A DNA stretch of 64,000 bases from Bradyrhizobium sp. SZCCHNS1050. Its GTDB lineage: Bacteria > Pseudomonadota > Alphaproteobacteria > Rhizobiales > Xanthobacteraceae. Positions 46,449-64,000 of the stretch are shown piece after piece. Below the pieces are notes generated by a model that saw only the letters and a program-made list of their open reading frames with translations, did not search any database and had not been told where the DNA came from. The DNA lies in contig NZ_JAUETR010000003.1 in NCBI RefSeq assembly GCF_032484785.1, positions 288,490 to 352,489 of the forward strand, in the 5' to 3' direction. Numbering within the stretch: the first letter of the stretch is position 1; each line of letters begins with the position of its first letter. The translations under genes were made by a program, and so were the position numbers.

Positions 46449-46655
46449 CGAATTGTTGCGCCGCACGACTCCACGGCCACCGCAGGCGTGGCGACGTCGA
46501 TGGCGTCGTGGTCGTTGATTGATGCCAACCAACGCGGTATCGCTGATGCTCCGGTTCTGACGTTCCTTCGAAGACGCAGCCCGCACGCTGGTTGAATGTC
46601 GGATCCGCGACACTGAATGATCCGGATCTTCGATCCGGCCGGGGGAGGCAGGCAC

Positions 46656-48696: not shown

Positions 48697-49865
48697 GGCT
48701 GCGCCGCTCCACGTTTGCCGATCGCGACCCCGGTCAGCGTCTGATTGACGTGCATTGAACCGTACTGCTCGCCATAGGTATGGAATCCGACGATCCGGTT
48801 GTCGCGATAGAGATCGGACATTTCCCGCGCAAACTGATGCTGCTCTGCGTCAAGACGCCTGAGGATGCACTCGAAACCGATGAAGATCGAGACCTCGCCG
48901 ATCTCGTCGCGGACCTCGGCCAGCATCTCGCGGGCGGCCGCCACGGAGTTGCGTGACCTCGCCGCCGTCAGCACCATTCCTTCGTCGATCGCGCAGAAGA
49001 ACCGGAGCGAGCCGTCAGGGCTGACGCGCTGAATCGAGCGCGCGAAATAGGAGCCTCCCACGCGCACCAGGACCGGATGGGCCGCAAACAGGAACGGGTC
49101 GAGCTCGGAATCGGCTATTCCGATCGCGCGACAATATTCCTCCGCCGCCGGCTCGGCATTGAGCTGCTTGACGATACGCTGCTCGAGATCGGCCTCCGTC
49201 ACCACCATCTTGGTCGAGGTCGGCTCGAAATTGTCGCATTTGAACAGCCGGAACGGCAATGACGTCCTGATCAGGATCAGCACGGCCATGTCCGTGTGGG
49301 CCTTGCCGTCGTGAAAGACCCAGGTGCGCTCGAACCGCAGACCGTCGCCGGCCGACCCGCCAACCAGGGGAATATTGTCGAGCGAGGCGTAGATCGCCGA
49401 CATGATCGCCTCTTCGCGCTGGCACATGCCGTCGATCAGGACGAGCCCGAATACGCCGTCGTCGTCGCGACCACCGTGCCGCGACAGGTCCTGCCTCATC
49501 TGGTTGCCGAGGCGACGTCCTTCATCGACGCGAAAGCCCGACAACCCGAAGATGGGCTGTGCGAATACCGTGAAATCCTCGGCGGCAAATCCGAGAGCGA
49601 CGACGCTGTTGTCGTCCCAGCCATCGGGCGACAGCTCTCCGGCCGTCGTACAGCCGTATACGGGGACGTCCGCAAGACGGGTCGTCACCTCCACCATGAA
49701 CTCGTTTGGATCGTAGTGGGGCGACAGGAAGATCAGCACCATCGCCAACCCCTCGGCCGGCAACTGGCCGCAGATGTCGGCCGCCGCAGCGGCCTCCGTC
49801 GCAGCCTTGGACTTTGCAGCAGTCACGCCAGACGGACGCGGGGGCCGAGGATCGGCGTCTCCCAT
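48693..49865 (-). CDS. FIST-domain sensor protein (NosP-like)
   Basis: 390 residues from ATG 49865, with GGGAGG six bases upstream; the frame to 49949 is unlikely. FIST N domain: MVLIFLSPHYDPNEFMVEVTTRLADVPVYGCTTAGELSPDGWDDNSVVALGF. FIST C domain: DPFLFAAHPVLVRVGGSYFARSIQRVSPDGSLRFFCAIDEG, and the end FIGFECILRRLDAEQHQFAREMSDLYRDNRIVGFHTYGEQYG. In Pseudomonas this protein (NosP) binds heme and nitric oxide and controls NahK. Here it is translationally coupled to a NahK-like kinase. Heme and NO binding are inferred. Confidence 0.9.
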   Translation of the reverse strand: MGDADPRPPRPSGVTAAKSKAATEAAAAADICGQLPAEGLAMVLIFLSPHYDPNEFMVEVTTRLADVPVYGCTTAGELSPDGWDDNSVVALGFAAEDFTVFAQPIFGLSGFRVDEGRRLGNQMRQDLSRHGGRDDDGVFGLVLIDGMCQREEAIMSAIYASLDNIPLVGGSAGDGLRFERTWVFHDGKAHTDMAVLILIRTSLPFRLFKCDNFEPTSTKMVVTEADLEQRIVKQLNAEPAAEEYCRAIGIADSELDPFLFAAHPVLVRVGGSYFARSIQRVSPDGSLRFFCAIDEGMVLTAARSRNSVAAAREMLAEVRDEIGEVSIFIGFECILRRLDAEQHQFAREMSDLYRDNRIVGFHTYGEQYGSMHVNQTLTGVAIGKRGAAQP

Positions 49866-50079
49866 CGGGCACCTCCCAGAACGACACTTTGGTTTGTTGG
49901 CGATCGTTCGTTTTTTTAGAAGATTAAGCCAATTGAGCAGCAACGGCAACCGCGCGGCTTGATCCAGGACAAGGACTTGGGCCGGGCTGTCGTCCGATCA
50001 TCCGCGCGGATCTGCTCACCGCGCCTGGCCCGGGGGGCTAGCCCGCGCCCGCTCCGGATCGAAAAGGGAAAGATTTCGC

Positions 50080-50451
50080 ATGCTCCGCCGCATCGCTCTT
50101 GTCGCCGTTCTCGCCTGCCTGGCACCGAGCGCCCGCGCGCTCGACGGAAATCCGGCCGCCGGGAAAAGCATCTTCCAGCGCATCTGCCAGAACTGCCACT
50201 CTGCCGAGATCGGCGTCAACAAGGTCGGCCCGAGCCTCTGGAACATCGTTGGACGGCAGCCAGCGGCTGTGCCGGACTACGCCTATTCGGAGAGCATGAA
50301 AAAGAACAATGCGCCTTGGACCGCGACGGCACTGGATGCCTATATCGCCGATCCTCGCGGGGACGTTCACGGCGTCAAGATGTATTTCAAAGGATTGGCG
50401 GACGCGAAGGAGCGGGCCGACGTCGTCGCCTATCTGTCGACTCTGAAATAG
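50080..50451 (+). CDS. Small soluble class I cytochrome c
   Basis: 123 residues with a signal peptide (ends PSARAL). One heme site, CQNCH, near residue 36, then GVNKVGPSLWNIVGRQPA. The axial Met lies near residue 97 in VKMYFKGL, where the family has K-M-x-F. This is the c2/c550 type. It could carry electrons from the PQQ dehydrogenase to an oxidase; position beside that cluster suggests but does not prove this. Confidence 0.9.
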   Translation: MLRRIALVAVLACLAPSARALDGNPAAGKSIFQRICQNCHSAEIGVNKVGPSLWNIVGRQPAAVPDYAYSESMKKNNAPWTATALDAYIADPRGDVHGVKMYFKGLADAKERADVVAYLSTLK

Positions 50452-50630: not shown

Positions 50631-52004
50631 TCACGATGAGCTTGGATCACCCTTCTTTCGAAGCGAAAGCTTCAGGGCGGCGCCTCCAATTCGCGAATCC
50701 TCGATCCATAGTCGGCCATCATAGAGGCTGGTCAGGTCGCGGGCGATCGCCAGACCGAGCCCAGTGCCGGGCTTCGCGTCGTCAAGTCTCGTGCCCACGT
50801 CGAACACGCGCATTCGATGCTCGACTGGAATGCCGGGCCCGTCGTCCTCAACCGTGATCAAGACGGTGCTGTCGAGATCCTCGATCGAAATCACGACGCG
50901 GTCACGTGCCCATTTTGCCGCATTGTCGAGCAGGTTGCCGAAGAGTTCGGTCAGATCGTTGGTATCGCAGGCAACGACGACGTCGGTTGCTCCTTCGACT
51001 TCGAACCGCCGGTCGTGCCCCGGGCTGAATCGCGAGTAGGTATTGATGACGCTCCTCAAGACGTCTGCGACGACCGTAAACGCACCTGCATTCGCGATCG
51101 TGGAGGCCTTTGCGCGCGCCGTCTGGTAGTCGATGAGCAGCGCCATTCGCGAGCACTGCTCCGACAGAATCTGAGCGTGGATCTCCTGACCGGACGCTTT
51201 CAGCCGTGCTGCCTCCTCGTCGAGAATTGCCAGAGGTGTCTTCAGCGCGTGTGCAAAACTTCCTGCGAGTACGCGAGCGCGATCGACCATGTTGAGATTT
51301 GCCGCAATCATTCCGTTCAGCTCGGTGACGAGCGGCATGATTTCCTCCGGCAGGTCCTCAGGCAGCCTTGAGGTCTTGCCGCTACGCACGTCCACGATGG
51401 CGCGACTCATGCGCTGGAGCGGCCGCAGGCCGTAAACGACCTGAGCGTAGGCGGTGCCAACCATGGCGAGGGCCATGATACCAAGCGTCGCTATCAGCGT
51501 CAGATTGAGGTGCTGCATCTCGTCACTAATCAGTCGCTCGTCTGCACCGACACGGATTTCGACGGGTTGCCCGAGGCGAGACGGCTCGCTGATGTTTCGG
51601 ACCATGCGCATCGGCCCAGTCGGTCCCTCCACACTAAGCGCCGTGGAGGAGGGCAGGGAACCCTCGCGACTCTGGTCGGGCGTGAATGAAAGGAAAAGGT
51701 CATCCTGCAACGACGGCGAGCGCGCGCTTTCGCCGTTCTGCAGGATGACCTGCCAATACATTCCGGACCGGGCAGGGGAGAAACGCGGATCGCTCAGATC
51801 GCGGGCGATGAACAGCCGCTGCGTGGCGTCGAGTTCCACGAGATCGGCGAGCTCGCGGGCGTGATCCAGCAGGTCATGATCGAAGTGGGCCTCGACGACA
51901 CGGCGAATGACGATCGAGAGCCCGAGCCCGCTGGCGAACAAGACGATGGAAATCCAGATCGCGGCGACCGCGAGCATCCGGGCTCGGAAGTTGCGGCTGA
52001 ACAT
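50631..52004 (-). CDS. Membrane sensor histidine kinase
   Basis: 457 residues from ATG 52004, four bases after the regulator stop. TM1 residues about 8-33, a periplasmic domain of about 130 residues, and TM2 near 172-192 are followed by HAMP. HisKA has SFAHALKTPLAILDEEAARL (phospho-His in AHALKTPL, PhoQ-like), then HATPase_c with LLDNAAKWARDRV, EDDGPGIPVEHRMRVFDVGTRLDD and GTGLGLAIARDL. It forms a two-component pair with the preceding OmpR-type regulator. Its place behind ccmFGHI suggests control of that locus or of the multiheme cytochromes. Confidence 0.93.
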   Translation of the reverse strand: MFSRNFRARMLAVAAIWISIVLFASGLGLSIVIRRVVEAHFDHDLLDHARELADLVELDATQRLFIARDLSDPRFSPARSGMYWQVILQNGESARSPSLQDDLFLSFTPDQSREGSLPSSTALSVEGPTGPMRMVRNISEPSRLGQPVEIRVGADERLISDEMQHLNLTLIATLGIMALAMVGTAYAQVVYGLRPLQRMSRAIVDVRSGKTSRLPEDLPEEIMPLVTELNGMIAANLNMVDRARVLAGSFAHALKTPLAILDEEAARLKASGQEIHAQILSEQCSRMALLIDYQTARAKASTIANAGAFTVVADVLRSVINTYSRFSPGHDRRFEVEGATDVVVACDTNDLTELFGNLLDNAAKWARDRVVISIEDLDSTVLITVEDDGPGIPVEHRMRVFDVGTRLDDAKPGTGLGLAIARDLTSLYDGRLWIEDSRIGGAALKLSLRKKGDPSSS

Positions 52005-52008
52005 TGCT

Positions 52009-52668
52009 CTACCCGAAGCGATATCCCATGCCTCTGACGGTGCGAATGCAGTCACGCCCCAGCTTCCTCCTGAGCCGGGCAATGTAGACTTCGACCGTAT
52101 TGGAGTCGCGATGGTCGCTGCTCGGATAGATGTGCTCCAGCAGCTCGGTCTGCGACACGATATGATCGGCGCGGCGCATGAGGAGTTCGAGAACGCGCAA
52201 CTCGAGTGCAGTCAGGTCGACGATCTCCCCGTCCTTCTTGACCAGGCCGGCCGCCGCGTTGAATTCGATCTGCCGGAGGCGGAGCACGGCGTCCGGTCTG
52301 CTGGAGACCCGACGGAGCAGCGATTTGACCCGCGCGACGAGCTCCTGCGCCTTGAAGGGCTTTTCGAGATAGTCGTCCGCGCCTGCGTTCAGGCCGTTCA
52401 CACGCTCGACCCAGCCGCTGCGGGCGGACAGGATCAGCACCGGCAGCGTGTGCCCGGTATGACGCCAGCGTTGCAGCACGTCGAGGCCCGAAATGCACGG
52501 CAGGCCGAGGTCGAGCACCGCGGCATCATAGGGCTGGCTGTTGCCCAGCATCCAGCCCTGCTTGCCATCGGTGGCGAGATCCGCCTCGAAACCGGCATCG
52601 GCCAGGCTTTCCCTGATGCGCTCCGCGTAGATGGGCTCGTCCTCTATGAGCAGAATGCGCATTGCCAT
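52009..52668 (-). CDS. OmpR/PhoP-type response regulator
   Basis: 219 residues. The receiver has ILLIEDEPIYAERIRESL, phospho-Asp in AAVLDLGLPCISG, and Lys in GADDYLEKPFKAQELVARV. The winged helix is LTALELRVLELLMRRADHIVSQTELLEHIYPSSDHRDSNTVEVYIARLRRKL. It lies 57 bp after ccmI on the same strand and directly before its kinase, so it may be the fifth gene of the ccm operon. OmpR-type proteins bind 10-11-bp spaced direct repeats such as those at 62936-62955. Confidence 0.94.
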   Translation of the reverse strand: MAMRILLIEDEPIYAERIRESLADAGFEADLATDGKQGWMLGNSQPYDAAVLDLGLPCISGLDVLQRWRHTGHTLPVLILSARSGWVERVNGLNAGADDYLEKPFKAQELVARVKSLLRRVSSRPDAVLRLRQIEFNAAAGLVKKDGEIVDLTALELRVLELLMRRADHIVSQTELLEHIYPSSDHRDSNTVEVYIARLRRKLGRDCIRTVRGMGYRFG

Positions 52669-52725
52669 TCCTCCGGTTGCCGAACGGGTTCCGACGATGC
52701 GGACACGCTGATCGGGCCTCGAACG

Positions 52726-54045
52726 CTATGGATTGATCCCGAGCTCTCTGGCTGCGTCAGCGATGCGCGTGCGCTCCGGGACGTCCTCCGCAAAGACCGA
52801 CAGTGCGCGTTGCAGCGACTGTTTCGCCGCCTCGACATCGCCCAACACCACCCGCGAGCGGATCAACTTGATCCAGCCTTCTGCATCGCGCGGTGATTGC
52901 TCGAGTCGGCTCGCAAGGCCATCCACCATGCCCCGGATCATGAGGTTGCGGTCCTGTGTGGACATGCTTTCCGCCTTGCGGATGTCCTCGGCGCGGGGGC
53001 CGCGCGGCTCCGCCGGCTCGGTCGCGGAGGTCTTGCCGGAGCGCAGGAGTTCCTGCATGCGCTCGGCGGACAGGTTCGGCCGGGCAGGCGATGGCGAGCC
53101 GCCGTCCTCTCCGAGCTCGCGACGAAGCGCGCCGAGCCGCTGCTTGAGATCGGGCAGCCACGGCTCGTTCGGATCGGCCTCCGATACGATCGCCGCCCAG
53201 TCGGCCATCGCACCCCGTTTGTCTCCCTCCTGTTCTTTCACGACGCCGATGAAGAAGCGGGCGCGCGCGTCCTTGGGATCCAGTTTGAGTGCTTCGTCGA
53301 AGTCCGCGCGGGCTTCGGACGTGACGGTGCCGTCCGCCGCCCGCACCAGCGCTTCGCCGCGTGCGCTGCGGTATTCTGCCGAGCTTGGCCGCAGCTCCAT
53401 TGCGCGCGCATAGGCCTGTGCCGCCTCTGCAAAGCGCTCGATGTTGAACAGCGACCAGCCCAGCAGCCGCCATCCGTCGGCATCCTTGGGATTCCGCTCC
53501 AGTCTCGTCTGCACACGCTGGATCATCTCTTCGACCGGCGGCAGTCCGCTGCTCTGCTGCGGTCGGTCGCGACCGTCCTGGCTGGTCATCTGCTCCAGCG
53601 AGGCAATGGCCTGGGTGCCGGCGTCGGATCGCGCCTCGCCAACCGACCTCGCCGTGGTGCTGCTGGCGGTCTGGCCCGGTCCGGCCGCGGGGACATCCGG
53701 ATTTCCGACAACCGCATACAGACCGACGGAGCCGAACACCACCGTCAGCGTGACGACACTGAGCGCAAATTTTCGTTCGGAGCTGGCGAGGGAGGGCGCC
53801 GGCGGCTGTTCGGCGGCCGCTGCGGCGAGAATGCGCCGCTTGATCTCGCTGGCCGCGTTCTCGCCATCCGACTTGTCGATCAGGCCGCGTGCGGTTTCGT
53901 TCTCGATCTCGCGGAGCTGGTCGTGGTGGACGGCAAGTCCCTGAGCCGAAGCCAACCGTCTCCGCTCGTAGCTGCGGATGAATGGCGTCGATATGAGCAC
54001 GGCGGCCACGGAAATCATCGCCGTCAGGATCAGCCACAGCATCAT
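52726..54045 (-). CDS. ccmI: Cytochrome c maturation protein CcmI (TPR)
   Basis: 439 residues from ATG 54045, overlapping the ccmH stop. Two membrane helices (LILTAMISVAAVLISTPF; FALSVVTLTVVFGSVGLYAVV) flank a cytoplasmic leucine-zipper-like loop (RRRLASAQGLAVHHDQLREIENETARGLIDKSD). The periplasmic part has TPR units (NPKDADGWRLLGWSLFNIERFAEAAQAYARAMELRP; DPKDARARFFIGVVKEQEGDKRGAMADW). CcmI delivers apocytochrome c to the CcmF/H heme lyase. It is longer than typical and carries a disordered Pro/Glu insert around residue 300. Confidence 0.9.
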   Translation of the reverse strand: MMLWLILTAMISVAAVLISTPFIRSYERRRLASAQGLAVHHDQLREIENETARGLIDKSDGENAASEIKRRILAAAAAEQPPAPSLASSERKFALSVVTLTVVFGSVGLYAVVGNPDVPAAGPGQTASSTTARSVGEARSDAGTQAIASLEQMTSQDGRDRPQQSSGLPPVEEMIQRVQTRLERNPKDADGWRLLGWSLFNIERFAEAAQAYARAMELRPSSAEYRSARGEALVRAADGTVTSEARADFDEALKLDPKDARARFFIGVVKEQEGDKRGAMADWAAIVSEADPNEPWLPDLKQRLGALRRELGEDGGSPSPARPNLSAERMQELLRSGKTSATEPAEPRGPRAEDIRKAESMSTQDRNLMIRGMVDGLASRLEQSPRDAEGWIKLIRSRVVLGDVEAAKQSLQRALSVFAEDVPERTRIADAARELGINP

Positions 54046-54554
54046 GAAAGGCTCCGTCGATCGAGGATCGCCTCGATGGCTTCGAGTTCGTCGGCGCTGA
54101 GCGGAGCGACGTGCTCCGCCTCGGGCGCACTCGCATTGGCTGCCGCCCGGCGCACGTAGCGGCCGAAGCCGACGGCGGCCGTGAGCAGGGCGAGCAGGGG
54201 ACCGATCCACAGCGCGATGGTATTCCACTGCAAGGGAGGCTTGAGCAGGACGAAGTTGCCGTAGCGTGCGACCAGGAAGTCCACCGCCTGCCGGTCGCTG
54301 TCGCCGGCCTGCAGGCGATCGCGCAGCAGCACCCTCAGATCATGCGCCAATGGAGCGTTGGAGTCGTCAATGCTCTGATTTTGACAAACGACGCAGCGCA
54401 GCTCCTGGCCCAGCGCGCGCGCGCGGGCCTCCAGTCCCTCGTCGCGCAACATTTCGTCGGGAAGCACCGCACGAGATGGCGACCATGTCGCCGTCAGCAC
54501 GAGCGAGCTGACGAGCAGCGCTTCGGCCGCGCGCTTGATCCGCCGGCAGTTCAT
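54042..54554 (-). CDS. ccmH: Cytochrome c maturation protein CcmH
   Basis: 170 residues. A signal/anchor is followed by the redox motif LRCVVCQNQSIDDSNAPLAHDLR (CxxC), then LVARYGNFVLLKPPLQWNT and a C-terminal membrane helix (IGPLLALLTAAVGFGRYV). It reduces or holds the apocytochrome CxxCH thiols for heme attachment in the periplasm. The start overlaps ccmG by four bases and the end overlaps ccmI by four, so the three are translationally coupled. Confidence 0.94.
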   Translation of the reverse strand: MNCRRIKRAAEALLVSSLVLTATWSPSRAVLPDEMLRDEGLEARARALGQELRCVVCQNQSIDDSNAPLAHDLRVLLRDRLQAGDSDRQAVDFLVARYGNFVLLKPPLQWNTIALWIGPLLALLTAAVGFGRYVRRAAANASAPEAEHVAPLSADELEAIEAILDRRSLS

Positions 54555-55087
54555 GACTCGCTCCTGAGTGCCTTCAGCAGAGGTTCGAAATCGTCACGCC
54601 ATACATCTTCGGTCAGCGGGCCGGGATAGCGGAAGCGGATGCGGCCGGCCCGATCGATCACGAAGGTTTCGGGAACGCCGGTCACGCCAAGATCGATGCC
54701 GGCCCGGCCGGACTCATCGGAGCCGACACGGGCATAGGGACTGCCATGCTTGGCAAGCCAACGTTTGCCGTCGTTCCGATCGTCCTTCCAGTTCAGCCCA
54801 TAGATCGGGATCGCGGAGCTCTCTGCGAGCTTGAGCAGCATGGGATGCTCGACGCGGCATCCAGGGCACCAGGATGCGAAAACGTTGAGCAGGACCACGT
54901 CGCCCTGCAGGTCGGTATTGGCAAGACCGCCGCCCTTGCCGTCGAGCGACGCGAGCTGGAAACGCGGCGTCGGCTTGTCGATCAGGGTCGAGGGCATTCG
55001 CTGCGGATCGTTGGTCAGGCTGAAAGCCAGTCCAGCGGCCAGTGCGGCGAAAGCCACGAGAGGTATGAGATAGGGGAGGCGCGGCAT
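54551..55087 (-). CDS. ccmG: Thiol:disulfide oxidoreductase CcmG/DsbE
   Basis: 178 residues. An N-terminal membrane anchor (YLIPLVAFAALAAGLAFSL) precedes a thioredoxin fold with active site NVFASWCPGCRVEHPMLLKLA and cis-Pro region GVTGVPETFVIDRAGRIRFRYPGPL. It keeps apocytochrome cysteines reduced. It begins 8 bp after ccmF. Confidence 0.95.
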   Translation of the reverse strand: MPRLPYLIPLVAFAALAAGLAFSLTNDPQRMPSTLIDKPTPRFQLASLDGKGGGLANTDLQGDVVLLNVFASWCPGCRVEHPMLLKLAESSAIPIYGLNWKDDRNDGKRWLAKHGSPYARVGSDESGRAGIDLGVTGVPETFVIDRAGRIRFRYPGPLTEDVWRDDFEPLLKALRSES

Positions 55088-55095
55088 ATCTCGTC

Positions 55096-57084
55096 CTATT
55101 CAGCAGGAACGGCAGTCGGTACGGCCCGCATCGCCCGTCGCGGAGCACCGACACGAAATCTCCGGTCGGCCAGCGAGATGAAGCCGCCGAAAGCCATCAT
55201 CAGTGCGCCGATCCAGACCAGCGGCACCAGAGGGTGATAGTAGCAGCGCACCGCCCACGCGCCCTTGTCGTCGGGATCACCGAGCGTCACGTAGACGTTC
55301 CAGATCAGGTTGGTTCGAATGCCAGCGGCGGTCGTCTGCTGCTGTCTGACGGGATAGAAGCGGCGCTCGCTGGAAAGCTGCGTGAACGGCTTGCCGTTCC
55401 GCGTGATGTCGAACGTGCCACGCTCGGCTTCGTAGTTGGGGCCTGGAAATTTTCCGATCGAGCGCAGCTTAATGTCGTAGCCCGCGAGCTGCAGGCTCTG
55501 GCCCGGCCGCAGCATTTGCACCTTCTCGCTGGCCCACGCGGTCATCCCGGTAATGCCTGCGACGGTGACGCCCATTCCCGCATGGGCCAGCACCAGGCCG
55601 TAGACCGCGAGCGGGGTGGTGCGCGCGAGGTTGAGCGAGGTCGCCAAGGGAGTCGTCATGCCGAGGCGGACGCGATGAGCCAGCACCATTAGCGAGCCGA
55701 TCACGAGCCAGACGGCGATGCCGAAGAAGAACGCAACCAGGAAACGCTGTCCGAACGTCGCGACGAGGATCGCGACGGCAATGAATGCCGCAAGTCCCCC
55801 GGCCAGGCGGAGTCGTTGCAGGGCCGCAACGAGGAGATCGCGCTTCCATTTCAGAACCGGGCCGATCACCATGGCAAGCAGCAGCGGAACCATGATCGGA
55901 ACGAACGTCAAGTTGTAGTAGGGAGGACCGACGGAGATCTTGTCGTTTCCGAGCATGTCGACGAGGAGCGGGTAGAACGTGCCGAGAAACACGGTGGCCA
56001 CGGCTGCCGTGAGCAGCACATTGTTGAGGACGAGGCCGCTCTCCCGGCTGACGGCTGCGAACAGCGCACCGTGCTTCAGGCTTGGGGCTCTGATCGCATA
56101 CAGCGTCAACGCCCCGCCGGTCGCCACCAGGATGAGCGCCAGGATGAATGCGCCACGCGACGGGTCCTGTGCGAAGGCATGAACGCTGGTGAGCACGCCG
56201 GACCTCACCAGGAAAGTCCCGATCAGGCTCAATGAGAAGGTCACGATCCCCAGCAGGATCGTCCAGCTCTGGAGGGCGCTCCGACGTTCGACCACCAGGG
56301 CGGAATGCAGGAGCGCAGTCCCCGCAAGCCACGGCATGAAGGAGGCGTTCTCGACGGGGTCCCAGAACCACCAGCCGCCCCAGCCGAGCGTGTAGTACGC
56401 CCATGCGCTGCCCAGCGTGATTCCAATCGTGAGAAAGCACCAGGCCGCGAGCACCCACGGTCGGACCCAGCGGGCCCAGCTGGCATCGACCTTTCCCTCG
56501 ATCAGCGCGGCGACCGAGAACGAGAACGCCATCGAGAAGCCGACGTAACCCAGATACAGAAACGGTGGATGAAAGGCGAGGCCAGGATCCTGCAAAATCG
56601 GATTCAGTCCGTTGCCTTCGAGGGGAGCATCGACCAGCCGCGCGAACGGATTCGACGTCGAGACGATGAACGCCAGAAAGCCGAGGCCGATCATGCCGTG
56701 CACGCCGAGAACGTTGCTCTGCAGCCGCTCCGGAAGGTTCGTTCCGAACAATGCAACTGCCGCGCCGAACAAGGAGAGGATCAGGACCCACAGCAGCATG
56801 GATCCCTCATGGTTTCCCCAGACTCCGGAGACCTTGTAAAGCAGCGGCTTCAGCGTGTGCGAATTCGCTGCGACGACCTGGACCGAAAAGTCGGAGTGGA
56901 CGAACAGCGACGTCAGGCATGCGAATGCGATCGCGACAAACAGAAACTGAGTCAAGGCAGCGTGACGAACGAAGCCGGCGATCATCGCGGATTGGCGGCG
57001 CAGCGCTGCGAACGGAACGATCGACTGCACCAGCGATACGAGGAGCGCGAGAATGAGCGCAAACGATCCGACCTCCGCTGTCAT
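55096..57084 (-). CDS. ccmF: Heme lyase CcmF
   Basis: 662 residues from ATG 57084 with about 14-15 membrane helices. The tryptophan-rich WWD motif is GWGGWWFWDPVENASFMPWLAGTALLHS, and GVWGNHEGSMLLWVLILSLFG precedes it. Conserved periplasmic His residues lie in the expected loops, and the C-terminal domain before the last helix (YPVRQQQTTAAGIRTNLIWNVYVTLGDPD) is complete. It ligates heme to CxxCH with CcmH and CcmI. Canonical rhizobial order is cycHJKL (ccmI-E-F-H); here it is F-G-H-I and ccmE is missing, so this looks like an additional, dedicated set. Confidence 0.94.
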   Translation of the reverse strand: MTAEVGSFALILALLVSLVQSIVPFAALRRQSAMIAGFVRHAALTQFLFVAIAFACLTSLFVHSDFSVQVVAANSHTLKPLLYKVSGVWGNHEGSMLLWVLILSLFGAAVALFGTNLPERLQSNVLGVHGMIGLGFLAFIVSTSNPFARLVDAPLEGNGLNPILQDPGLAFHPPFLYLGYVGFSMAFSFSVAALIEGKVDASWARWVRPWVLAAWCFLTIGITLGSAWAYYTLGWGGWWFWDPVENASFMPWLAGTALLHSALVVERRSALQSWTILLGIVTFSLSLIGTFLVRSGVLTSVHAFAQDPSRGAFILALILVATGGALTLYAIRAPSLKHGALFAAVSRESGLVLNNVLLTAAVATVFLGTFYPLLVDMLGNDKISVGPPYYNLTFVPIMVPLLLAMVIGPVLKWKRDLLVAALQRLRLAGGLAAFIAVAILVATFGQRFLVAFFFGIAVWLVIGSLMVLAHRVRLGMTTPLATSLNLARTTPLAVYGLVLAHAGMGVTVAGITGMTAWASEKVQMLRPGQSLQLAGYDIKLRSIGKFPGPNYEAERGTFDITRNGKPFTQLSSERRFYPVRQQQTTAAGIRTNLIWNVYVTLGDPDDKGAWAVRCYYHPLVPLVWIGALMMAFGGFISLADRRFRVGAPRRAMRAVPTAVPAE

Positions 57085-57168
57085 TTGGTATCTCCGACTG
57101 CAGCGGATATTCCTGCAGCTAACTATCAAGTGTCTGTGATGCGCCGACAATCAATGCGCCGAATGAGG

Positions 57169-57189
57169 CATCATTCGTACGGAATGATG
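57169..57189. promoter_or_regulatory. Inverted repeat upstream of ccmF
   Basis: CATCATTC and GAATGATG are perfect 8-bp inverted arms around GTACG, 85 bp upstream of the ccmF start. It is a candidate operator for the ccm operon. The 299-bp gap between ccmF and the ankyrin gene is AT-rich around 57270-57300 but holds nothing else I can name. Confidence 0.5.
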
Positions 57190-57383
57190 ATGATCCATCG
57201 ACGTGCATCGTAGTGTAACTGCAACTCATTCGCACCCACGGCCGGAGAGCGGTATCATCGGGGCGTCTTGGTACTTAGTGTTATATTCATTGAGATATAG
57301 CGCGCGAATCATCTGCCGCGCCGTCGAGCGGCGAACGCGAGGTCGACGGCATGATAGGCAGAAAGGCGAGACGAAATCGTCCG

Positions 57384-58886
57384 CTATTCCAGAAGCTTGG
57401 CGATATCGCCGTGACCGCTGGCAGCGGCGATGTCCGTGGCACGTTCGCGGCGCTTGTTCCTCAACTGCTTTTCGGCACCGGCGGCGAGAAGGCTGTGCGC
57501 AATGCCGATGTTCCCCTCATGGGCCGCCATCATCAGCGCGCTCATGCCCTGGCCGTTGCGCATGTTCGGGTCGGCCTTGCGCCTGAGAAGCTCACTGACG
57601 ACATCCGCAAGCCCGGCACGCGCGGCGAGGATGAGAGCGGTATTTCCGCCTCTTGTCGCGCGTTTCGGGTCGGCCCCATGGTCCAACAGAAGCAGCGAGG
57701 CCGCGGCGCTGCGGCCCTCGATGGCATTCAGCAACGGCGTCTTGTCGTCGGTGTCCGCGCGGTTGACGTCCGCACCTGCGCGGATCAGTTGTCCGATCGC
57801 GTGCGTATTGCCATTGCCGGCCGCGTGCCAGAGTGCGGTGCGGCCCTGCCCATCGGCGGCGTTGAGGTCGGATCTCTGAACGAGTTGCCGATCGAGCGGG
57901 CCATTGGGGCACGACGCGACCGCGACCATGAGTGGGGTCCGGCCGTCTGCCAACGCGGGCAGACTGCCGGAGGCGCCGTCGAGGAGCGCGGCGATAGCGG
58001 CGCCGTTGCAGCGGCTGAGCGCCATCAGTAGTGCGGTCGCGCCATCTGCACGCGCTGCAGACGGGTCGGCCGCCTTGGTCAGCAGCAGTCTGATGATGTC
58101 TCCATGATCCTTGTCCGCTGCCAGCATCAATGGCGTGTCGCCGCGCCGGTTGCTGGTGTTCGGATTGGCTCCCGAGGCGAGCAGGAGCTCCACCAGCCGA
58201 AGATGCCCGGCGGCCGCAGCGATCGCCAGAGGCGTATCGCCGTCCTCGTTGACCGCGTTGACGTCAGCCTTCGCAGCGATGAGCTGGCGCATCGGATCGA
58301 ACTGGCCGCGCAGGGCGGCGTCGATGATGGCCGGATGGCCGTTTCGCATGGCTGCCTGCGCATCGAGCGTCGGGGGCGGCCTGCGCGCAGCTTCGCGCGC
58401 CGGCTCCCCGGCGCGCGGGCGCACATTTCGGTTGACCATGTCGGCCAGCAACTGCTCGGCGGGCTGATAGCCGGCCGCCGCCGACTTGCGTAGCCAGTCC
58501 CGCGCCCGGTCGGGATCGGCCGGCGTTCCGCGGCCCGCAAGCCACATCGCTGCGACATTATACTGCGCCTTGACGTGTCCCTTCCTTGCGCTTGCCTCCA
58601 TCCATTTGAACGCCAGCGTGTCGTCTGCTCTGGTGCCGAGACCGGCGCGGTAAAGTGATGCAAGCCGGTACTGCGCCTCCGGATTGCCGGCGCTGGCGGC
58701 GCGCTCGAGCAGCTTCAGTGCGTCCTCGGGATGTCCGGCGCGGATCGCGGCATCGGCCGCCTGGCTCGCGGATGCTTCGGAGCTCACGCCGGCCGGCGTT
58801 TCGCCGGCCGGGGCGACCGACGGCACGGTCGAGCCGACGAGACAGATCAGGGGGATGATGACGTGAGAGGACTTAAGCCGTGCCAT
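57384..58886 (-). CDS. Exported Sel1-like plus ankyrin-repeat protein
   Basis: 500 residues with a signal peptide (ends SVAPAG). Residues about 40-150 carry Sel1-like repeats (AQYRLASLYRAGLGTRADDTLAFKWMEASARKGHVKAQYNVAAMWLAGRG). Residues about 180-500 carry around nine ankyrin repeats (DGDTPLAIAAAAGHLRLVELLLASGANPN and relatives). Both are protein-binding scaffolds. The start overlaps the end of the flavoprotein gene by 14 bp, so it is co-translated and likely serves the same periplasmic complex. No enzymatic domain is present. Confidence 0.88.
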   Translation of the reverse strand: MARLKSSHVIIPLICLVGSTVPSVAPAGETPAGVSSEASASQAADAAIRAGHPEDALKLLERAASAGNPEAQYRLASLYRAGLGTRADDTLAFKWMEASARKGHVKAQYNVAAMWLAGRGTPADPDRARDWLRKSAAAGYQPAEQLLADMVNRNVRPRAGEPAREAARRPPPTLDAQAAMRNGHPAIIDAALRGQFDPMRQLIAAKADVNAVNEDGDTPLAIAAAAGHLRLVELLLASGANPNTSNRRGDTPLMLAADKDHGDIIRLLLTKAADPSAARADGATALLMALSRCNGAAIAALLDGASGSLPALADGRTPLMVAVASCPNGPLDRQLVQRSDLNAADGQGRTALWHAAGNGNTHAIGQLIRAGADVNRADTDDKTPLLNAIEGRSAAASLLLLDHGADPKRATRGGNTALILAARAGLADVVSELLRRKADPNMRNGQGMSALMMAAHEGNIGIAHSLLAAGAEKQLRNKRRERATDIAAASGHGDIAKLLE

Positions 58887-60174
58887 ATTTCGTCTCGACC
58901 TCGATACCCATGCTCTTCAGGAATGCGGTGGGCAGAATGCCGCCGACACACACGATGACGGCATCGTTTGGGATCGTGCTCGTGCTGCCATTGGCATCGA
59001 TCTCGACGTCGTCATCGCCGATCCGTTTGACTGACGAATTGTAGATGACGCGGAGCCGGCCCGATTGCGCGGCTGCTTCCGTCCGTTGACGGTTCTTCAG
59101 CTTGGCGCGACCGAACGACTCGCTGCGATGCGACAGGGTCACCGTCGTTCCAGGCTCATCGGCGATGGAGCATGCGGCCTCCAATGCAGCGTCGCCGCCG
59201 CCGACGACGAGCACGTGCTGGCCGCGATACTGCTCGGGGTCGACCAGTCGATAGACGACCTTGGTCTGCTCTTCGCCTGGAGCCTCCAGCTTGCGCGGCG
59301 TTCCGCGGCGCCCGATCGCCAGGAGCACGGCATGCGTTCTGTAGCTGCCGCGGTTCGTCCTGACGTCGAAGCCTTCTCCGACTCGCGTGACGGCCTCGAC
59401 GCGCTCGCCGACGTTCACCTTGAGGCGGGATTTGCGCACGATGCTCATGAAGAAGGCGATCAACTGCTCCTTGCTGAGCTCTCTGAAGTTGAACTTGCCC
59501 GCGAGCGGCAGCGTGAAAGGTGCCGTCATCACCAGCTTGCCGCGGGGAAAGTGCGCGACGGTGCCGCCGAGCGAGTCCTGCTCGAGCGTGACGAAGCGCA
59601 GCCGATGCTGCAGGCAGGCGAGACTGGCGGAGAGTCCGGCCGGACCGCAGCCGACGACCACGACGTCGAGCATATCGGACTTGCCGATGTTCTTGACCTT
59701 GCGGACGGAGTCGATCGCCTGGCGTCCCTGCTCGATGGCGTTGCGGACCAGCCCCATCCCGCCGAGCTCTCCGGCGATGAAGATGCCGGGCACGTTGGTC
59801 TGGAACGCCTCGTCCACGTTCGGAATGTCGATGCCGCGCGTTTCGGTGCCGAACACCAGCGTGATGGCGTTCACGGGGCACACCGCCTTGCAGGCGCCGT
59901 GTCCGATGCAATGCGAAGGCTCGACCAGCGACGCCTTGCCGCCGATCAGGCCGAGAATGTCGCCCTCCGGACACGCCCTGACGCATGAGCCACAGCCGAT
60001 GCACAAGGCAGGATCGATGATGGGATGGAGCGATGCCGGCTCGAGAAGACCGGCGTCCTTGGCGGCCGAGAGCTTCGCGACGCTCTTTATTTCCTTCCGC
60101 TTGCGCACGGCCATGTAAGTGGCCCAGACGCCGAGCATTGGCGCGGCGTAGACAATCAGGAGATCGATCGCCAT
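58873..60174 (-). CDS. Membrane-anchored 2x[4Fe-4S] FAD/NAD(P) oxidoreductase
   Basis: 433 residues. An N-terminal membrane helix (LLIVYAAPMLGVWATYMAV) is followed at about 52-95 by two ferredoxin clusters (CIGCGSCVRACPEGD and CIGHGACKAVCPVNA). Next comes a linker with GIFIAGELGGMGLVRNAIEQG, then a thioredoxin-reductase-like pair of nucleotide domains (VVVVGCGPAGLSASLACLQ for FAD and VLVVGGGDAALEAACSIA for NAD(P)). There is no CxxC redox pair, so it is not a thioredoxin reductase. It probably moves electrons between NAD(P)H and quinone or cytochrome partners. Divergent from the cytochrome b gene. Confidence 0.88.
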   Translation of the reverse strand: MAIDLLIVYAAPMLGVWATYMAVRKRKEIKSVAKLSAAKDAGLLEPASLHPIIDPALCIGCGSCVRACPEGDILGLIGGKASLVEPSHCIGHGACKAVCPVNAITLVFGTETRGIDIPNVDEAFQTNVPGIFIAGELGGMGLVRNAIEQGRQAIDSVRKVKNIGKSDMLDVVVVGCGPAGLSASLACLQHRLRFVTLEQDSLGGTVAHFPRGKLVMTAPFTLPLAGKFNFRELSKEQLIAFFMSIVRKSRLKVNVGERVEAVTRVGEGFDVRTNRGSYRTHAVLLAIGRRGTPRKLEAPGEEQTKVVYRLVDPEQYRGQHVLVVGGGDAALEAACSIADEPGTTVTLSHRSESFGRAKLKNRQRTEAAAQSGRLRVIYNSSVKRIGDDDVEIDANGSTSTIPNDAVIVCVGGILPTAFLKSMGIEVETKYGTA

Positions 60175-60532
60175 GTCGTCTCTCTCTTTCTTACGAACTA
60201 ACAGCGGAAGATAGAGAGTCGCCGACCGCGAACTCCGCGTGAAAAGGTCGGATGCGGTGCTAGATGCAAATTCCTCTCAAGAGATGCCGACATAGAAATT
60301 CCAGAATGATCTGACGTCTTGGAGACCAGGATTGGATCATTCGTTGAACAGATGCCGTCGGCGGAAATATGGCTCGCACTGATTTCGGACTAATGACGTC
60401 GGTGTCGGAAGACGGAGAGGGTTGTTGCAAGTGGTTATCACTAAGTTCTCTCTCGACTGAGATCCGGGGCTCCGCGAACGGGTCTGGCTTCCGCCGATCC
60501 GGCATTCGGGATTCACAGGAAACGTCGAGGTC
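60175..60532. promoter_or_regulatory. Divergent promoter region of the multiheme cluster
   Basis: 358 bp between the flavoprotein gene and the b-type cytochrome gene, with no convincing frame. It is less GC-rich than its surroundings, as expected for two divergent promoters. A short AGGAAAC precedes the cytochrome b start. I see no perfect palindrome. Confidence 0.45.
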
Positions 60533-61411
60533 ATGAGCAGAGCAGCGGTCGCTCGCGCGAGCGGCAATCCTCTTCGAGGAACCATTCCGGTCGTCATCAC
60601 GGTCATCGTCCTCGGAGCGATTGCCGTCGGGTGGCTGCAGAAGGAGGAGGAGTATATTACGCCGGGCTCCGGCACCGGATACTGGCTCGGGATCTACGGC
60701 AGCGTCGCCATGCTGTCGCTGCTGGCCTATTCGATGCGTAAGCGCTTCAAGTCGCTGCGCGGCATCGGCTCGGTGCCGTTCTGGTTCAGGACCCACATGC
60801 TGCTCGGCGTCATTGGTCCCGTGCTCATCCTATTCCATGCGAATTTCCAACTGGGGGCGCTCAACAGCAACGTGGCATTCTTCACCATGCTGATCGTGGC
60901 GATCAGCGGCGTGATCGGCCGTTACATCTATGGCAAGATCCATATGGGCCTCCATGGCGGGAGAGCGCGTGTCAAGGAGCTGCTCGCCGAGGCCGAGGCA
61001 ATGCGAACGGAGCTCGGTGAGGAGATGCAGGCCGTCTCGTTCGTGTCGCGGGAGCTGGCTGCCTTCAGCAAGGGGCTCGACAACAAGGTGCCGCGAACTG
61101 CGCTGGGCAGCCTGCGAACCGGCGCGGTCATCGCAGCGCGGACGAGGCGGCTGCGCGCCAATGTGGTTGCGGAAGCGCGCCGCCTCATTCGCGCCGAAGC
61201 CAAGCGCGCGCGATGGTCGTGGTCCGAGCGACGGCGTCGCGAGAAGCGAATCGAGGAGGTGGTGCGGCGCTACGCCGCCGCAGTGCGCAAGGCCGCTGAG
61301 CTGACGTTCTTCGAACGATTGTTTTCGCTGTGGCATGTGCTTCATCTGCCGCTGTTTTTTCTCATGCTGCTGGCGGGCGTCGTTCATGTCTGGGCCGTCC
61401 ATCACTATTGA
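60533..61411 (+). CDS. b-type membrane cytochrome-like protein
   Basis: 292 residues with about five membrane helices: residues 16-36, 50-68, 83-106, 110-130 and 264-290. Candidate heme-ligand His lie in FRTHMLLGVIGPVLILFHANF and LWHVLHLPLFFLMLLAGVVHVWAVHHY. A long charged coiled coil (about 140-262) separates helices 4 and 5 and probably faces the cytoplasm. It ends 9 bp before the 18-heme gene. It could link the membrane quinone pool, or the flavoprotein, to the periplasmic hemes. The heme content is inferred from paired histidines. Confidence 0.75.
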   Translation: MSRAAVARASGNPLRGTIPVVITVIVLGAIAVGWLQKEEEYITPGSGTGYWLGIYGSVAMLSLLAYSMRKRFKSLRGIGSVPFWFRTHMLLGVIGPVLILFHANFQLGALNSNVAFFTMLIVAISGVIGRYIYGKIHMGLHGGRARVKELLAEAEAMRTELGEEMQAVSFVSRELAAFSKGLDNKVPRTALGSLRTGAVIAARTRRLRANVVAEARRLIRAEAKRARWSWSERRRREKRIEEVVRRYAAAVRKAAELTFFERLFSLWHVLHLPLFFLMLLAGVVHVWAVHHY

Positions 61412-61420
61412 CGGAGTTGC

Positions 61421-62782
61421 GTGATGCGGTGGCGTGTTGCGGTCGTTGTCGCCGTCCTGGCCGGCGTTGCCATGCTGTCGGCCGGAGTTCGAGCACAGAC
61501 GTTGCTGGAAAAGCTGGTCATGCCCGGCCCGCTGGCCGAGAAGCATGCCAAGCTCGAGAGCGAATGCGGAAAGTGCCACGAAGCCTATACCCGGAAGGCA
61601 CAGTCGGGCCTCTGCCTCGATTGCCACAAGGAGATTGCCGTCGATCGCAGGCAGCGTGAGCGCCTGCACGGACGCGACCAGGCGGCGCTGAGCCAGGAGT
61701 GCAGGCAGTGTCACACCGACCACAAGGGGCGTGGAACCGACATCGTCCAGCTCGACAAGGAAACCTTCAACCACGATATGACGAACTACCGGCTGGTCGA
61801 TGCGCACAAGACCGTGCCTTGTGCGGGATGTCACGTCGCGAAGGTGAAGTTCCGCAACACGCCCTCGACCTGCTTCGAGTGTCACAAGGCGCTCGATCCG
61901 CATCGCGGCCGGCTTGGTGAACGCTGCGAGAACTGCCACACGGCGGTGAAATGGCGCGCGACCAAGGAGTTCGACCACACGAAGACCCGGTTTCCCCTCG
62001 TGGGCGCTCACAAGTCGGTCGCTTGTGCGACGTGCCACTCCGGCGAGCAATACAAGGATCTGCAGACGTCGTGCGGCTCATGCCACCGTCTTCAGGACGT
62101 CCATGGCGGCCGCTTCGGCGACAAGTGCGAGACGTGTCACGATCAGGAGAAATGGAAGACGGTCCGCTTCAATCACGACAAGACCCGCTTCCCGCTGCGA
62201 AATGCGCATGCCAAGGTGAAGTGTGAGAGCTGCCATACGGGTGATCTCTATCGGGACAAGCTCGCGACGTCATGCGTGTCCTGTCACCGCAAGCAGGATC
62301 CGCATCAGGGCAAGCTCGGCGAACGCTGCGAGACGTGCCATAGCGATGCGGGCTGGCGGAAGAAGCTCACCTTCGATCATGAGATTACGCGTTTTCCGTT
62401 GATAGGTCTGCACAAGTCGGTGCCTTGCGAGGAGTGCCACCGGACGCCGACCTACAAGAATACGCCGATGGCCTGCGAAAGCTGCCACAAGGATTTCCAC
62501 CAGGGGAAGCTTGGAGGGCGGTGCGCCAGCTGTCACAATCCGAATGGGTGGCGGCTTTGGCGTTTCGATCACGCGCGGCAGACACGATTCCCGCTGGTCG
62601 GTGTCCACCAGAAGATCACGTGCGAGGCCTGTCACAAGGCCAAGTCGCCGCCGGATCTGAAGTTGCCGATGGATTGCTTCAGCTGTCATCGCAGCTCGGA
62701 CGTGCACAATGGCACCTTCGGTCAGACGTGCGAGCGCTGCCATGTCGCAACGGGATGGCGCAACGTTCAGATCAGGAACTGA
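61421..62782 (+). CDS. 18-heme c-type cytochrome made of six triheme modules
   Basis: 453 residues with a signal peptide (ends GVRAQ). I count 18 CxxCH sites. They fall into six successive units of about 65 residues. Each unit has three sites spaced about 13 and 15 residues apart and (except the last) ends in an F-[DN]-H-x-x-T-R-F-P-L-x-x-x-H-K-like linker. The linker His residues can supply second axial ligands. Such strings of hemes act as periplasmic electron wires. It follows the b-type cytochrome at 9 bp. I do not know a named homologue. Confidence 0.92.
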   Translation: MMRWRVAVVVAVLAGVAMLSAGVRAQTLLEKLVMPGPLAEKHAKLESECGKCHEAYTRKAQSGLCLDCHKEIAVDRRQRERLHGRDQAALSQECRQCHTDHKGRGTDIVQLDKETFNHDMTNYRLVDAHKTVPCAGCHVAKVKFRNTPSTCFECHKALDPHRGRLGERCENCHTAVKWRATKEFDHTKTRFPLVGAHKSVACATCHSGEQYKDLQTSCGSCHRLQDVHGGRFGDKCETCHDQEKWKTVRFNHDKTRFPLRNAHAKVKCESCHTGDLYRDKLATSCVSCHRKQDPHQGKLGERCETCHSDAGWRKKLTFDHEITRFPLIGLHKSVPCEECHRTPTYKNTPMACESCHKDFHQGKLGGRCASCHNPNGWRLWRFDHARQTRFPLVGVHQKITCEACHKAKSPPDLKLPMDCFSCHRSSDVHNGTFGQTCERCHVATGWRNVQIRN

Positions 62783-63272
62783 TTCGAACGGCTGCGTTGG
62801 CCGCACACGGCGTCTGAGATCGTGTCGAGCTGACATCGGCTCGCAGCGGCTATCAGTTCGCATGCAGATCAATAGCTTGCGTGATGAGCTTGCGGGACCA
62901 TTGCGCGCGCGCGACGTCAGAAACCTTAACCTCCATTCAGCTTGAGTTCAGCTTGGCCCAGTTTTGGGCCAGCTTTGCGCGTCTCTGGAAGCCCTGTCGT
63001 AGGCGTAGCGAAGGCTGCGTGATCTGGCCGATGACGCCGTCGTCGCCCGATCGATGCAGCGCTCGATCAAGGGAGCACGGAGCGTTCCGAGTATTCGGTG
63101 GCTGGGGAAGACGTGCCGCCGGGCCGTAGGGGAAATCCGCAAGGGTGTCTTGGATTTGTCGGGGCGACCGCCGAGCAGCGGACGCTCAACGGTCTCGGCT
63201 GGATTGGGGTCGGCCGGTCTCCGTCGGATGTCCGGCTGGCGATCGAGTCGAGAGTGAAGAGCGGAGTTGGAG
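62783..63272 (+). promoter_or_regulatory. 490-bp region between the two multiheme cytochrome genes
   Basis: No convincing gene; the frames here lack codon bias and heme sites. It holds the TTCAGCTTG direct repeats at 62936-62955, described separately, and leads to the second cytochrome. The length suggests that the second gene has its own promoter. Confidence 0.45.
62936..62955. promoter_or_regulatory. Direct repeat TTCAGCTTG with 11-bp period
   Basis: TTCAGCTTG occurs at 62936-62944 and 62947-62955, one helical turn apart, preceded by AACCTTAACC. The spacing fits tandem half-sites of an OmpR/PhoP-type regulator, such as the one encoded at 52009. It is about 320 bp before the next cytochrome gene. 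Confidence 0.5.
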
Positions 63273-64000
63273 TTGAGCAGCTGCTACAGCAAGCTGGGGC
63301 TGGTGGCGCGAGCCTCGCACCGTATGGTGCAGTGGCTGCTCGCCTGTATGCTGCTCGCTCTCGTGTTGGCAGGGCATGCTGCCGCGCAGAGCTCATTCGA
63401 CCATGCCTCGACAGGTTTTCCGCTGACCGGAAGCCATGTCGGGGTGGAGTGCTCGTCCTGTCACGTCGGCGGGCGGTTCAAGGGCACGCAGACGCAGTGC
63501 GCCAGTTGCCACAACGGCGCGCAGACGGCGGGCATGTCGGTCAACCACCCGATGTCCACGAGGCGATGTGAGAGCTGCCACCAGACCTCGACATGGAAGG
63601 ACGTTCGGGCGATCGATCATACCCAGGCGAAGGCGTCATGTACGACCTGCCATAACGGCGTGATGGCACGAGGCAAGTCGAAGAATCACATCACGACGAC
63701 GGCGCCATGCGATGTGTGCCACAGGTCGACGGCGAGCTTTCGCATCAGAATGAAGATGGACCACGCCGGCATTGTCGCCGGTTGCGCCAACTGCCACAAC
63801 GGGACGACGGCGCGCGGCAAGTCCAGCAACCATCTCCAGACCAATCTGCCGTGCGAGTCCTGTCACACCAGCACGGCGAGCTTCGGCGGTGCGGCGTTCA
63901 AGCACGCCGCGACCGACACCAATTGCGCGACCTGCCACAACGGCAAGACCGCGCAGGGCATGACCACGCCGCCGCACATCCCGACCGGGACGCTGCAGTG
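63273..64000 (+). CDS. Multiheme c-type cytochrome, at least eight hemes (3' end beyond window)
   Basis: The frame is open from TTG 63273 (GGAG six bases upstream; ATG 63324 is the alternative) to the window end. A signal peptide with core WLLACMLLALVLAGHAAAQ is followed by SSFDHASTGFPLTGSHVGVECSSCH, which resembles a linker and heme of the 18-heme protein. Eight CxxCH sites are visible, alternating CxxCHNG and CxxCH-x-S types roughly every 17 residues. It continues the cluster on the same strand. The start choice and the total heme number are unresolved. Confidence 0.85.
   Translation, partial: MSSCYSKLGLVARASHRMVQWLLACMLLALVLAGHAAAQSSFDHASTGFPLTGSHVGVECSSCHVGGRFKGTQTQCASCHNGAQTAGMSVNHPMSTRRCESCHQTSTWKDVRAIDHTQAKASCTTCHNGVMARGKSKNHITTTAPCDVCHRSTASFRIRMKMDHAGIVAGCANCHNGTTARGKSSNHLQTNLPCESCHTSTASFGGAAFKHAATDTNCATCHNGKTAQGMTTPPHIPTGTLQ

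Follow-up and report, generated by a model that had tools for sequence, protein, structure and literature searches.

A PCC3 locus of Bradyrhizobium with a probable heme-attachment module of its own

Among the bacterial systems proposed to carry electrons across the outer membrane, PCC3 is a putative porin-cytochrome conduit made up of a porin, an outer cytochrome, a periplasmic cytochrome (median heme number, 21), and a protein of the inner membrane, about 300 amino acids (aa) long, that has two WX3HX13H motifs and an SGXXG motif; it is reported to have no homology to MtrCAB/MtoAB (He et al. 2017, PMC5566968). The clusters listed in that paper include those of Bradyrhizobium sp. STM 3843 and of Amphritea atlantica DSM 18887, the latter with 63 and 21 hemes. 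Dedicated second heme lyases, which work beside the general cytochrome c maturation (Ccm) proteins, have been explained by the odd heme motifs that they serve, as for NrfEFG (PMC12285233) and SirEFG (PMC6976685), and for the CcmI/NrfG chaperones, binding to the C-terminal helix of NrfA has been reported (PMC12285233). Clusters for CcmH/NrfF and CcmH/NrfG are among those distinct to iron-oxidising Gallionellaceae, and the passages of PMC10734462 that concern them make no link to PCC3. Here, we describe a locus at the right-hand end of a stretch of 64,000 nucleotides (the window) from Bradyrhizobium sp. SZCCHNS1050, a close relative of strain STM 3843, in which PCC3 genes stand next to ccmI, ccmH, ccmG, and ccmF. 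We consider it probable that this locus is a PCC3 extracellular electron-transfer conduit carrying its own heme-attachment module.

A putative PCC3 conduit and a linked CcmFGHI set

A preliminary description of the window presented an undescribed electron-transfer system. This does not hold, because by its layout and motifs the electron-transfer core is a PCC3, i.e., a known kind of putative conduit. All four parts were found: the inner-membrane protein, the periplasmic cytochrome, the heme-rich outer cytochrome, and the porin. The inner-membrane protein (292 aa) has W84-x3-H88-x13-H102, SGxxG at residues 125-129, and W267-x3-H271-x13-H285, and these motifs are invariant in 20 of 20 sequences (the window protein and 19 homologs). 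It had been called a b-type cytochrome; the di-heme b motifs of PCC3 are present, and the name is kept here as a prediction from these motifs, the protein having no Pfam or NCBIfam match at E <= 0.001. The adjoining cytochrome (453 aa) has 18 CxxCH sites that contain all 36 of its cysteines, and would be located in the periplasm. The spacing of its sites repeats in triplets, and it matches models of c7-type triheme cytochromes, PF14522 above and TIGR04257 below the cut-off. The same periodicity is seen in all 61 intact cytochromes adjoining a b protein (a count that omits open reading frames (ORFs) cut at a left contig edge and includes STM 3843 twice): 18 sites in 28, 21 in 28, and 24 in five, all multiples of three.

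Related loci were collected through another product of the cluster, an iron-sulfur/flavin adenine dinucleotide (Fe-S/FAD) protein. It was searched for in 248 genomes of the family (E <= 1e-40), and an alignment of four family sequences retrieved 202 relatives from the genome collection, the best 80 of which were kept. The titles of these 80 loci are those of alpha-, beta-, gamma-, and a few deltaproteobacteria. In what follows, L-numbers denote gene loci, G-numbers genomes, and C1, C3, and C4 contigs of the window's own genome; gene labels in the locus comparison are best phmmer matches. It should be mentioned that loci collected in this way show that the Fe-S/FAD gene adjoins PCC3, not that every PCC3 has one, and that "PCC3-positive" in the surveys means that a genome has the Fe-S/FAD protein. 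By identity of this protein, the nearest named loci are those of B. aeschynomenes (95%), Bradyrhizobium sp. SSBR45G (94%), and STM 3843 (85%; L019), and L050 matches the A. atlantica cluster with its 63 + 21 hemes. Among the loci with flanks of at least 8 kb and 5 kb (n = 32), the b protein was found in 29, a multiheme cytochrome in 30, a porin in 27, a protein with Sel1 and ankyrin repeats in 22, and ccmF, ccmG, and ccmH together in 15, two of which are Ideonella.

The preliminary description had also proposed that the ccm genes of the window are a dedicated set. A search of the whole genome for a second ccmF, ccmH, and ccmI and for ccmE found a ccmI-E-F-H set on C1, including the only CcmE of this genome, so the genes in the window are not the sole set. 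In other words, CcmF/H/I paralogs adjoin the gene of their putative substrate and a general Ccm set lies elsewhere, which is the arrangement of a dedicated partial System I lyase. A CcmE match was obtained in three of the 80 loci (L058, L089, and L096), of which L089 and L096 fall outside the clade described below and L058 is not in the tree; no CcmE was found in the PCC3-linked sets.

In phylogenetic trees, CcmF is divided into two groups. In a tree of 77 rows, the 25 PCC3-linked CcmF form one clade (SH-aLRT support 99.9), and the other CcmF of every two-copy genome (17/17) lies outside it. All but one of the 25 come from alphaproteobacterial records; L065, a metagenome-assembled genome (MAG) titled Deltaproteobacteria, groups with Marinicaulis. 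In a tree of 114 rows, the linked clade has 28 rows, solely from genomes with the Fe-S/FAD protein and including one from each of three new positives, and no placed row from a genome negative for this protein falls within it. These trees took in two-copy genomes and best-scoring matches only, other negatives being unplaced; of 29 extra family CcmF, the smaller leaves out 21 and the larger 23; L074, which is short, is in neither, and the long-branched L187 is omitted from the larger. An early split of CcmF and a later transfer together with PCC3 would be indistinguishable on them.

The co-occurrence of this clade with PCC3 was seen in two surveys. In the family, at least two CcmF_C matches were found in eight of 248 genomes, i.e., all four with the Fe-S/FAD protein and four of the other 244; linked-clade CcmF was present in 4/4 of the former, and none was found in the 244, part of which were tested in trees. 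In the class survey (385 genomes, Fe-S/FAD protein at E <= 1e-90, up to three CcmF candidates scored per genome), two CcmF were found in all four Fe-S/FAD genomes and in four of 381 others; linked-clade CcmF was again in 4/4, with none found in the 381, only part of which were placed in trees. Of the class positives, one is the window's own genome, G651 is identical to a genome already used, and G533 has 8% contamination. Fisher tests give 6.5e-9 and 1.1e-9, treating genomes as independent though they are not. Among the 48 genomes behind the loci, 17 have two CcmF (all alphaproteobacterial records), 26 have one, four have none, and G288 has two fragments. In G228, a giant cytochrome and a porin stand between the Fe-S/FAD gene and the second CcmF, 17 kb away; in G021, the second copy follows a cytochrome and a porin on a different contig. 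G064 (its second CcmF) and G052 (both copies) were considered as counter-examples and rejected, these CcmF lying outside the linked clade and being accompanied by CcmE. Two further genomes without the Fe-S/FAD protein, G097 and G246, have two CcmF matches each, three of the four being partial and none in the tree. The preliminary description had named two findings that would speak against a dedicated set, namely that the genome has no other ccmF-I genes or that such sets are widespread where the multiheme genes are absent; neither was obtained in the genomes surveyed. As far as sequence can tell, the separate CcmF clade and its co-occurrence with PCC3 give good support to a dedicated CcmFGHI set.

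Heme sites, the truncated outer cytochrome gene, and the limits of the association

The second cytochrome, described earlier as having at least eight hemes, does show eight CxxCH sites before the edge of the window. This edge is the end of contig C3 (352489), and the gene is therefore cut by the assembly. At the end of C4, on the minus strand, are a cytochrome 3' end (L244:12137-12760), a putative porin (L244:8871-12140), and a 5-aminolevulinate synthase (L244:7573-8982). Because cytochrome, porin, and synthase are contiguous in near kin (all three in L247 and L248, porin and synthase in L245 and L246), we infer that the C4 fragment probably belongs to the cut gene of the window, although the two pieces are not joined. 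This fragment has six CxxCH sites and then, as its last motif, CTGACH, i.e., CX3CH. The porin is an intact ORF of 1089 aa, 71% identical to the L083 porin with which it was searched for; two stops flagged in this match are where it overruns the start of the ORF, which is itself open. Its Pfam matches are weak.

The synthase scores 674.4 bits against a cut-off of 338.55 and is present in all six PCC3 clusters of the genus that lie on a sufficiently long contig. L143, from G228, reads porin, ccmF, ccmG, ccmH, ccmI, synthase; the synthase was not found in the stretch after ccmI in G021 (L251), nor in the stretches L249 and L250. It was found in none of the 80 loci, a weak negative since four of them (L018, L020, L021, and L083) represent these very Bradyrhizobium clusters and stop short of the synthase. 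Identity to the synthase of the window's genome is 76-87% for those of the PCC3 clusters and 57-63% for two others that lie beside other ccm sets. In genomes G064 (L145) and G052 (L146), which have no Fe-S/FAD protein, ccmE-bearing ccm sets lie near an aminolevulinate synthase, and ORFs with a single CxxCH are close to the G064 set; these are perhaps a different accessory heme module.

Outer cytochromes of near kin have 43-83 CxxCH sites, and CXXCK was found in none of 123 multiheme ORFs. These cytochromes often end, as the C4 fragment does, in a single CX3CH as the last heme motif within a conserved tail (L018, L020, L083, L244, and others). CX3CH was counted in the methods of PMC5566968, and a terminal CX3CH is not discussed in its relevant passages. 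The tail is a candidate for a recognition end read by CcmI, or for an anchoring cap. A narrower form of our reading would be that the linked set serves this one atypical site, as NrfEFG serves CXXCK. The terminal motif is present in 12 of 14 full-set rows with an intact 3' end and in the C4 fragment of the genome itself, and the CcmI/NrfG chaperones reported on the C-terminal helix of NrfA (PMC12285233) are a precedent for reading a tail. On the contrary, it is also present in nine of 26 rows without a ccm gene and in four of eight rows with a ccmI-like gene or from Ideonella (some rows are not outer cytochromes, and seven further rows end in CX4CH), whereas Limimaricola L045 and L047 have the set without the motif. 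CX3CH was thus rejected as the sole cause of the set, not being exclusive to loci that have it, and service to this single site seems unlikely to us.

The wider proposal of a dedicated module also has to be weighed against a number of observations. The only CcmF of each of five alphaproteobacterial PCC3 genomes (L023, L043, L051, L053, and L086, including three MAGs) falls outside the linked clade, and the gammaproteobacterial PCC3 genomes searched have one, none, or two fragments. In Ideonella (L089 and L096), no CcmF was found in the genome besides that by the Fe-S/FAD gene, which is accompanied by CcmE and groups with ordinary CcmF; L058, a gammaproteobacterial MAG that is not in the tree, also has a ccmE-bearing set at the locus. 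ccmG was not detected in four linked sets (L025, L046, L083, and L144), and the terminal CX3CH occurs outside loci with a ccm set. Heme number was rejected as the cause of the set, as cytochromes with 63 and 75/76 hemes occur without it. The CcmF trees are unrooted with weak deep branches, and few positive genomes stand behind the association. Since there are PCC3 genomes with at most one full-length CcmF, the ordinary Ccm evidently can suffice and the set is no general requirement of PCC3; on the genomes compared, it is a lineage trait within the Alphaproteobacteria.

The chaperone appears to have a wider distribution. L023, L053, and L086 keep a solo CcmI, placed by the CcmI tree within the linked group, the support of which, at 86, is a further point against the proposal; the tree has no rows from L067 and L075 (weak ccmI) or from most unlinked loci, and L071 was not counted as a solo case, its contig beginning 560 bases before ccmI. 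In some gammaproteobacterial clusters, that of Amphritea among them, the genes of the b protein and the Fe-S/FAD protein are separated by an ORF that matches ccmI weakly (25-28 bits). The one checked (L030) matches Ig_CycH above and TPR_CcmH_CycH just below the cut-off, and these weak ORFs fall outside the linked group. With a solo CcmI in three loci and one CcmF in their genomes, it is the chaperone that seems to be the more constant, and the lyase would be a lineage addition.

These observations also bear on the possibility that in the linked CcmFGHI the genome has a second copy of general use, kept for dosage or for another regulation and serving all cytochromes c. The lyase motifs of the linked set are canonical, the sites of the heme wires are nearly all standard CxxCH and so within the range of an ordinary Ccm, and the gammaproteobacterial PCC3 genomes searched manage without the set, all of which a general copy would explain. 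It would not so readily explain why a separate clade is kept with PCC3 across several orders of Alphaproteobacteria, why neither survey turned up the set in a genome lacking the Fe-S/FAD protein, or why a solo CcmI is retained in three PCC3 loci. A general second copy is therefore improbable in our judgement, and a module dedicated to the conduit remains the preferred reading.

The Fe-S/FAD protein and other genes of the locus

In an alignment of 32 Fe-S/FAD proteins, the glycine motifs for FAD and for the nucleotide, R350, and R356 are invariant. The preliminary description had assigned two [4Fe-4S] clusters. Two cluster motifs are present; the first is mostly CxxCxxCxxxCP, with the second Cys replaced in several homologs, and the second, C89-x2-H92-x2-C95-x3-C99, has His in place of the second Cys in 32 of 32, so ligation of both clusters by Cys throughout is not a safe assumption. 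An N-terminal membrane anchor is predicted, and a preference for NADPH may be read from motifs known in thioredoxin reductases (TrxR).

As the flavin half is closest to YpdA and thioredoxin reductases, the protein might be thought to supply the Ccm proteins with thiol reductant and to stand outside the conduit. However, the redox CxxC of thioredoxin reductases is absent from all 32 aligned sequences, and the Fe-S/FAD gene adjoins PCC3 in loci where no ccm gene was detected; we regard this role as very improbable. More in keeping with a place in the conduit is an analogy in which the Fe-S/FAD protein and the b protein would resemble a split ferric reductase or NADPH oxidase that passes electrons to the cytochrome wire. 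In a search of plasmids with the Fe-S/FAD protein, 139 records matched, with at least 80% coverage in two, from Emticicia (44.6% identity) and Azospirillum (25.7%).

The gene list and order given in the preliminary description, from the kinase and regulator through ccmI-H-G-F, the Sel1-ankyrin protein, the Fe-S/FAD protein, and the membrane protein to the two cytochromes, were borne out (Table 1). Homologs of the Sel1-ankyrin protein lie near the Fe-S/FAD gene in 55 of the 80 loci. Close homologs of the kinase are in the flanks of only six of the 80, all Bradyrhizobium, and the two-component system was rejected as a fixed part of the cluster. The kinase has two near paralogs in its own genome (211 and 204 bits; the next best scores 67), one of which adjoins the ccmE-bearing ccm cluster; the paralogs of the pair at 50631-52668 are at L003:11729-13854. 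Two-component paralogs beside both ccm sets hint at a shared block of ccm regulators or at duplication of a block.

Table 1. Features of the PCC3 locus, in window coordinates.
Feature	Coordinates	Strand	Basis
Sensor histidine kinase (PhoQ-like)	50631..52046	-	PF02518; best NCBIfam match below cut-off
OmpR-type response regulator	52009..52668	-	PF00072 + PF00486
ccmI (apocytochrome c chaperone), PCC3-linked	52726..54045	-	TIGR03142, PF23914 over cut-off; tree
ccmH, LRCVVCQ thiol motif	54042..54554	-	PF03918; motif
ccmG (dsbE-family thioredoxin), WCPGC	54551..55087	-	TIGR00385 over cut-off; motif
ccmF (cytochrome c heme lyase), PCC3-linked clade, WGGWWFWDPVEN	55096..57105	-	PF01578 + PF16327, TIGR00353 over cut-off; trees
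Secreted Sel1 + ankyrin repeat protein, possible envelope scaffold	57384..58886	-	PF08238, PF12796; export signal read from sequence
Fe-S/FAD pyridine-nucleotide oxidoreductase (YpdA/TrxR-like, no redox CxxC)	58873..60174	-	PF13738, PF13237; alignment of 32; PDB relatives
PCC3 inner-membrane protein, predicted di-heme b	60533..61411	+	motifs as in He et al. 2017
Periplasmic (putative) 18-heme cytochrome, six triheme units	61421..62782	+	18 CxxCH, spacing pattern; PF14522
5' part of outer giant multiheme cytochrome, cut by contig end	63327..64000	+	8 CxxCH; PF14522

Two neighbourhoods deserve a mention. To the left of the locus, 42619-50451 codes for a pyrroloquinoline quinone (PQQ) dehydrogenase, a protein with a C-terminal cytochrome c domain, two LuxR-type regulators, a hybrid kinase, a FIST protein, and a small cytochrome c, a block that looks like one for alcohol oxidation. 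L080 has two Fe-S/FAD genes and two ankyrin genes with a ccm set between them, i.e., a doubled PCC3 neighbourhood.

A proposed route for electrons and heme, and known systems compared

In the scheme that we favour, the conduit would begin at the cytoplasmic Fe-S/FAD protein with its pyridine-nucleotide site and pass to the di-heme b membrane protein, which may also meet quinone; from there, electrons would go to the 18-heme periplasmic wire and on to the giant outer cytochrome held by the porin. The CcmF-G-H-I module would draw heme from the shared early steps of Ccm, presumably using a shared CcmABCD (of these early components and CcmE, CcmE is the sole one searched for), and load both wires, with CcmI as the part that picks the substrate. 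We infer this biochemistry and choice of substrates.

As to the direction of flow, we lean slightly towards electrons moving outward from NADPH or quinol. Inward flow, in which an external donor, e.g., Fe(II), would feed quinone and the Fe-S/FAD protein, would leave the rest of the scheme unchanged and is quite possible, if somewhat short of an even chance: PCC3 has been drawn as leading from an outside donor to the quinone pool (PMC5566968), whereas both PCC3 clusters of Sideroxydans ES-1 were down on Fe(II) (PMC8788666).

A bolder reading is that the alphaproteobacterial PCC3 is a self-supplied factory of heme wires, in which CcmFGHI would have evolved as a separate holocytochrome c synthase for very long CxxCH wires and not for an odd active-site heme, CcmI would read the CX3CH-capped tail of the outer cytochrome, and in Bradyrhizobium a synthase of the cluster's own would feed heme synthesis; we offer this tentatively, as an idea with rather more against it than for it. 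Whatever the outcome, the separate clade of lyases accompanies a single class of very heme-rich wires with almost exclusively standard sites, which makes a testable case for specialisation of a lyase by the length or the terminal tail of its substrate, and gives a hint at which factor could be lacking when another host is made to produce such wires. PCC3, the function of which is unproven, gains a candidate inner end in the Fe-S/FAD protein and a candidate maturation partner.

MtrCAB and MtoAB share with this locus a porin and a periplasmic multiheme cytochrome, and MtrCAB also an outer multiheme cytochrome. Their cytochromes have about ten hemes each, unlike those of PCC3.

Compared with PCC3 as laid out by He et al. 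(2017), the locus has the same porin, giant outer cytochrome, periplasmic cytochrome (18, 21, or 24 hemes in the loci compared here), and inner-membrane protein; the ccmFGHI, Fe-S/FAD, Sel1-ankyrin, two-component, and 5-aminolevulinate synthase genes are added here. In the main text of that paper, figures and supplements apart, the words "ccm", "FAD", "ankyrin", "maturation", and "flavoprotein" do not occur (PMC5566968), and in open-access texts, again apart from supplements and figures, no statement was found that ties ccm genes or the Fe-S/FAD protein to PCC3. The company of CcmFGHI with PCC3 in many Alphaproteobacteria, and of the synthase in Bradyrhizobium, thus appears to be new to open-access print.

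Among dedicated lyases, NrfEFG of Escherichia coli is likewise a partial, CcmF/H/I-like set that acts on a single multiheme protein, the general Ccm lying apart from it, but it serves a CXXCK site (PMC12285233), which is not found here, and most of the present sets include CcmG. The window CcmF passes one NrfE model (NF007691, 447.5 against a cut-off of 394) and does not reach another (TIGR03145, 638.5 against 927.3), nor is the NrfF model reached (TIGR03147, 92.1 against 159.2). SirEFGH of Shewanella oneidensis is similar in placing a second CcmF/H/I and a thioredoxin-like protein in the cluster of one multiheme cytochrome; it is directed at the CX12NKGCH site of an octaheme enzyme (PMC6976685), whereas the PCC3 cytochromes form long wires of CxxCH sites, in which a single CX3CH often comes last.

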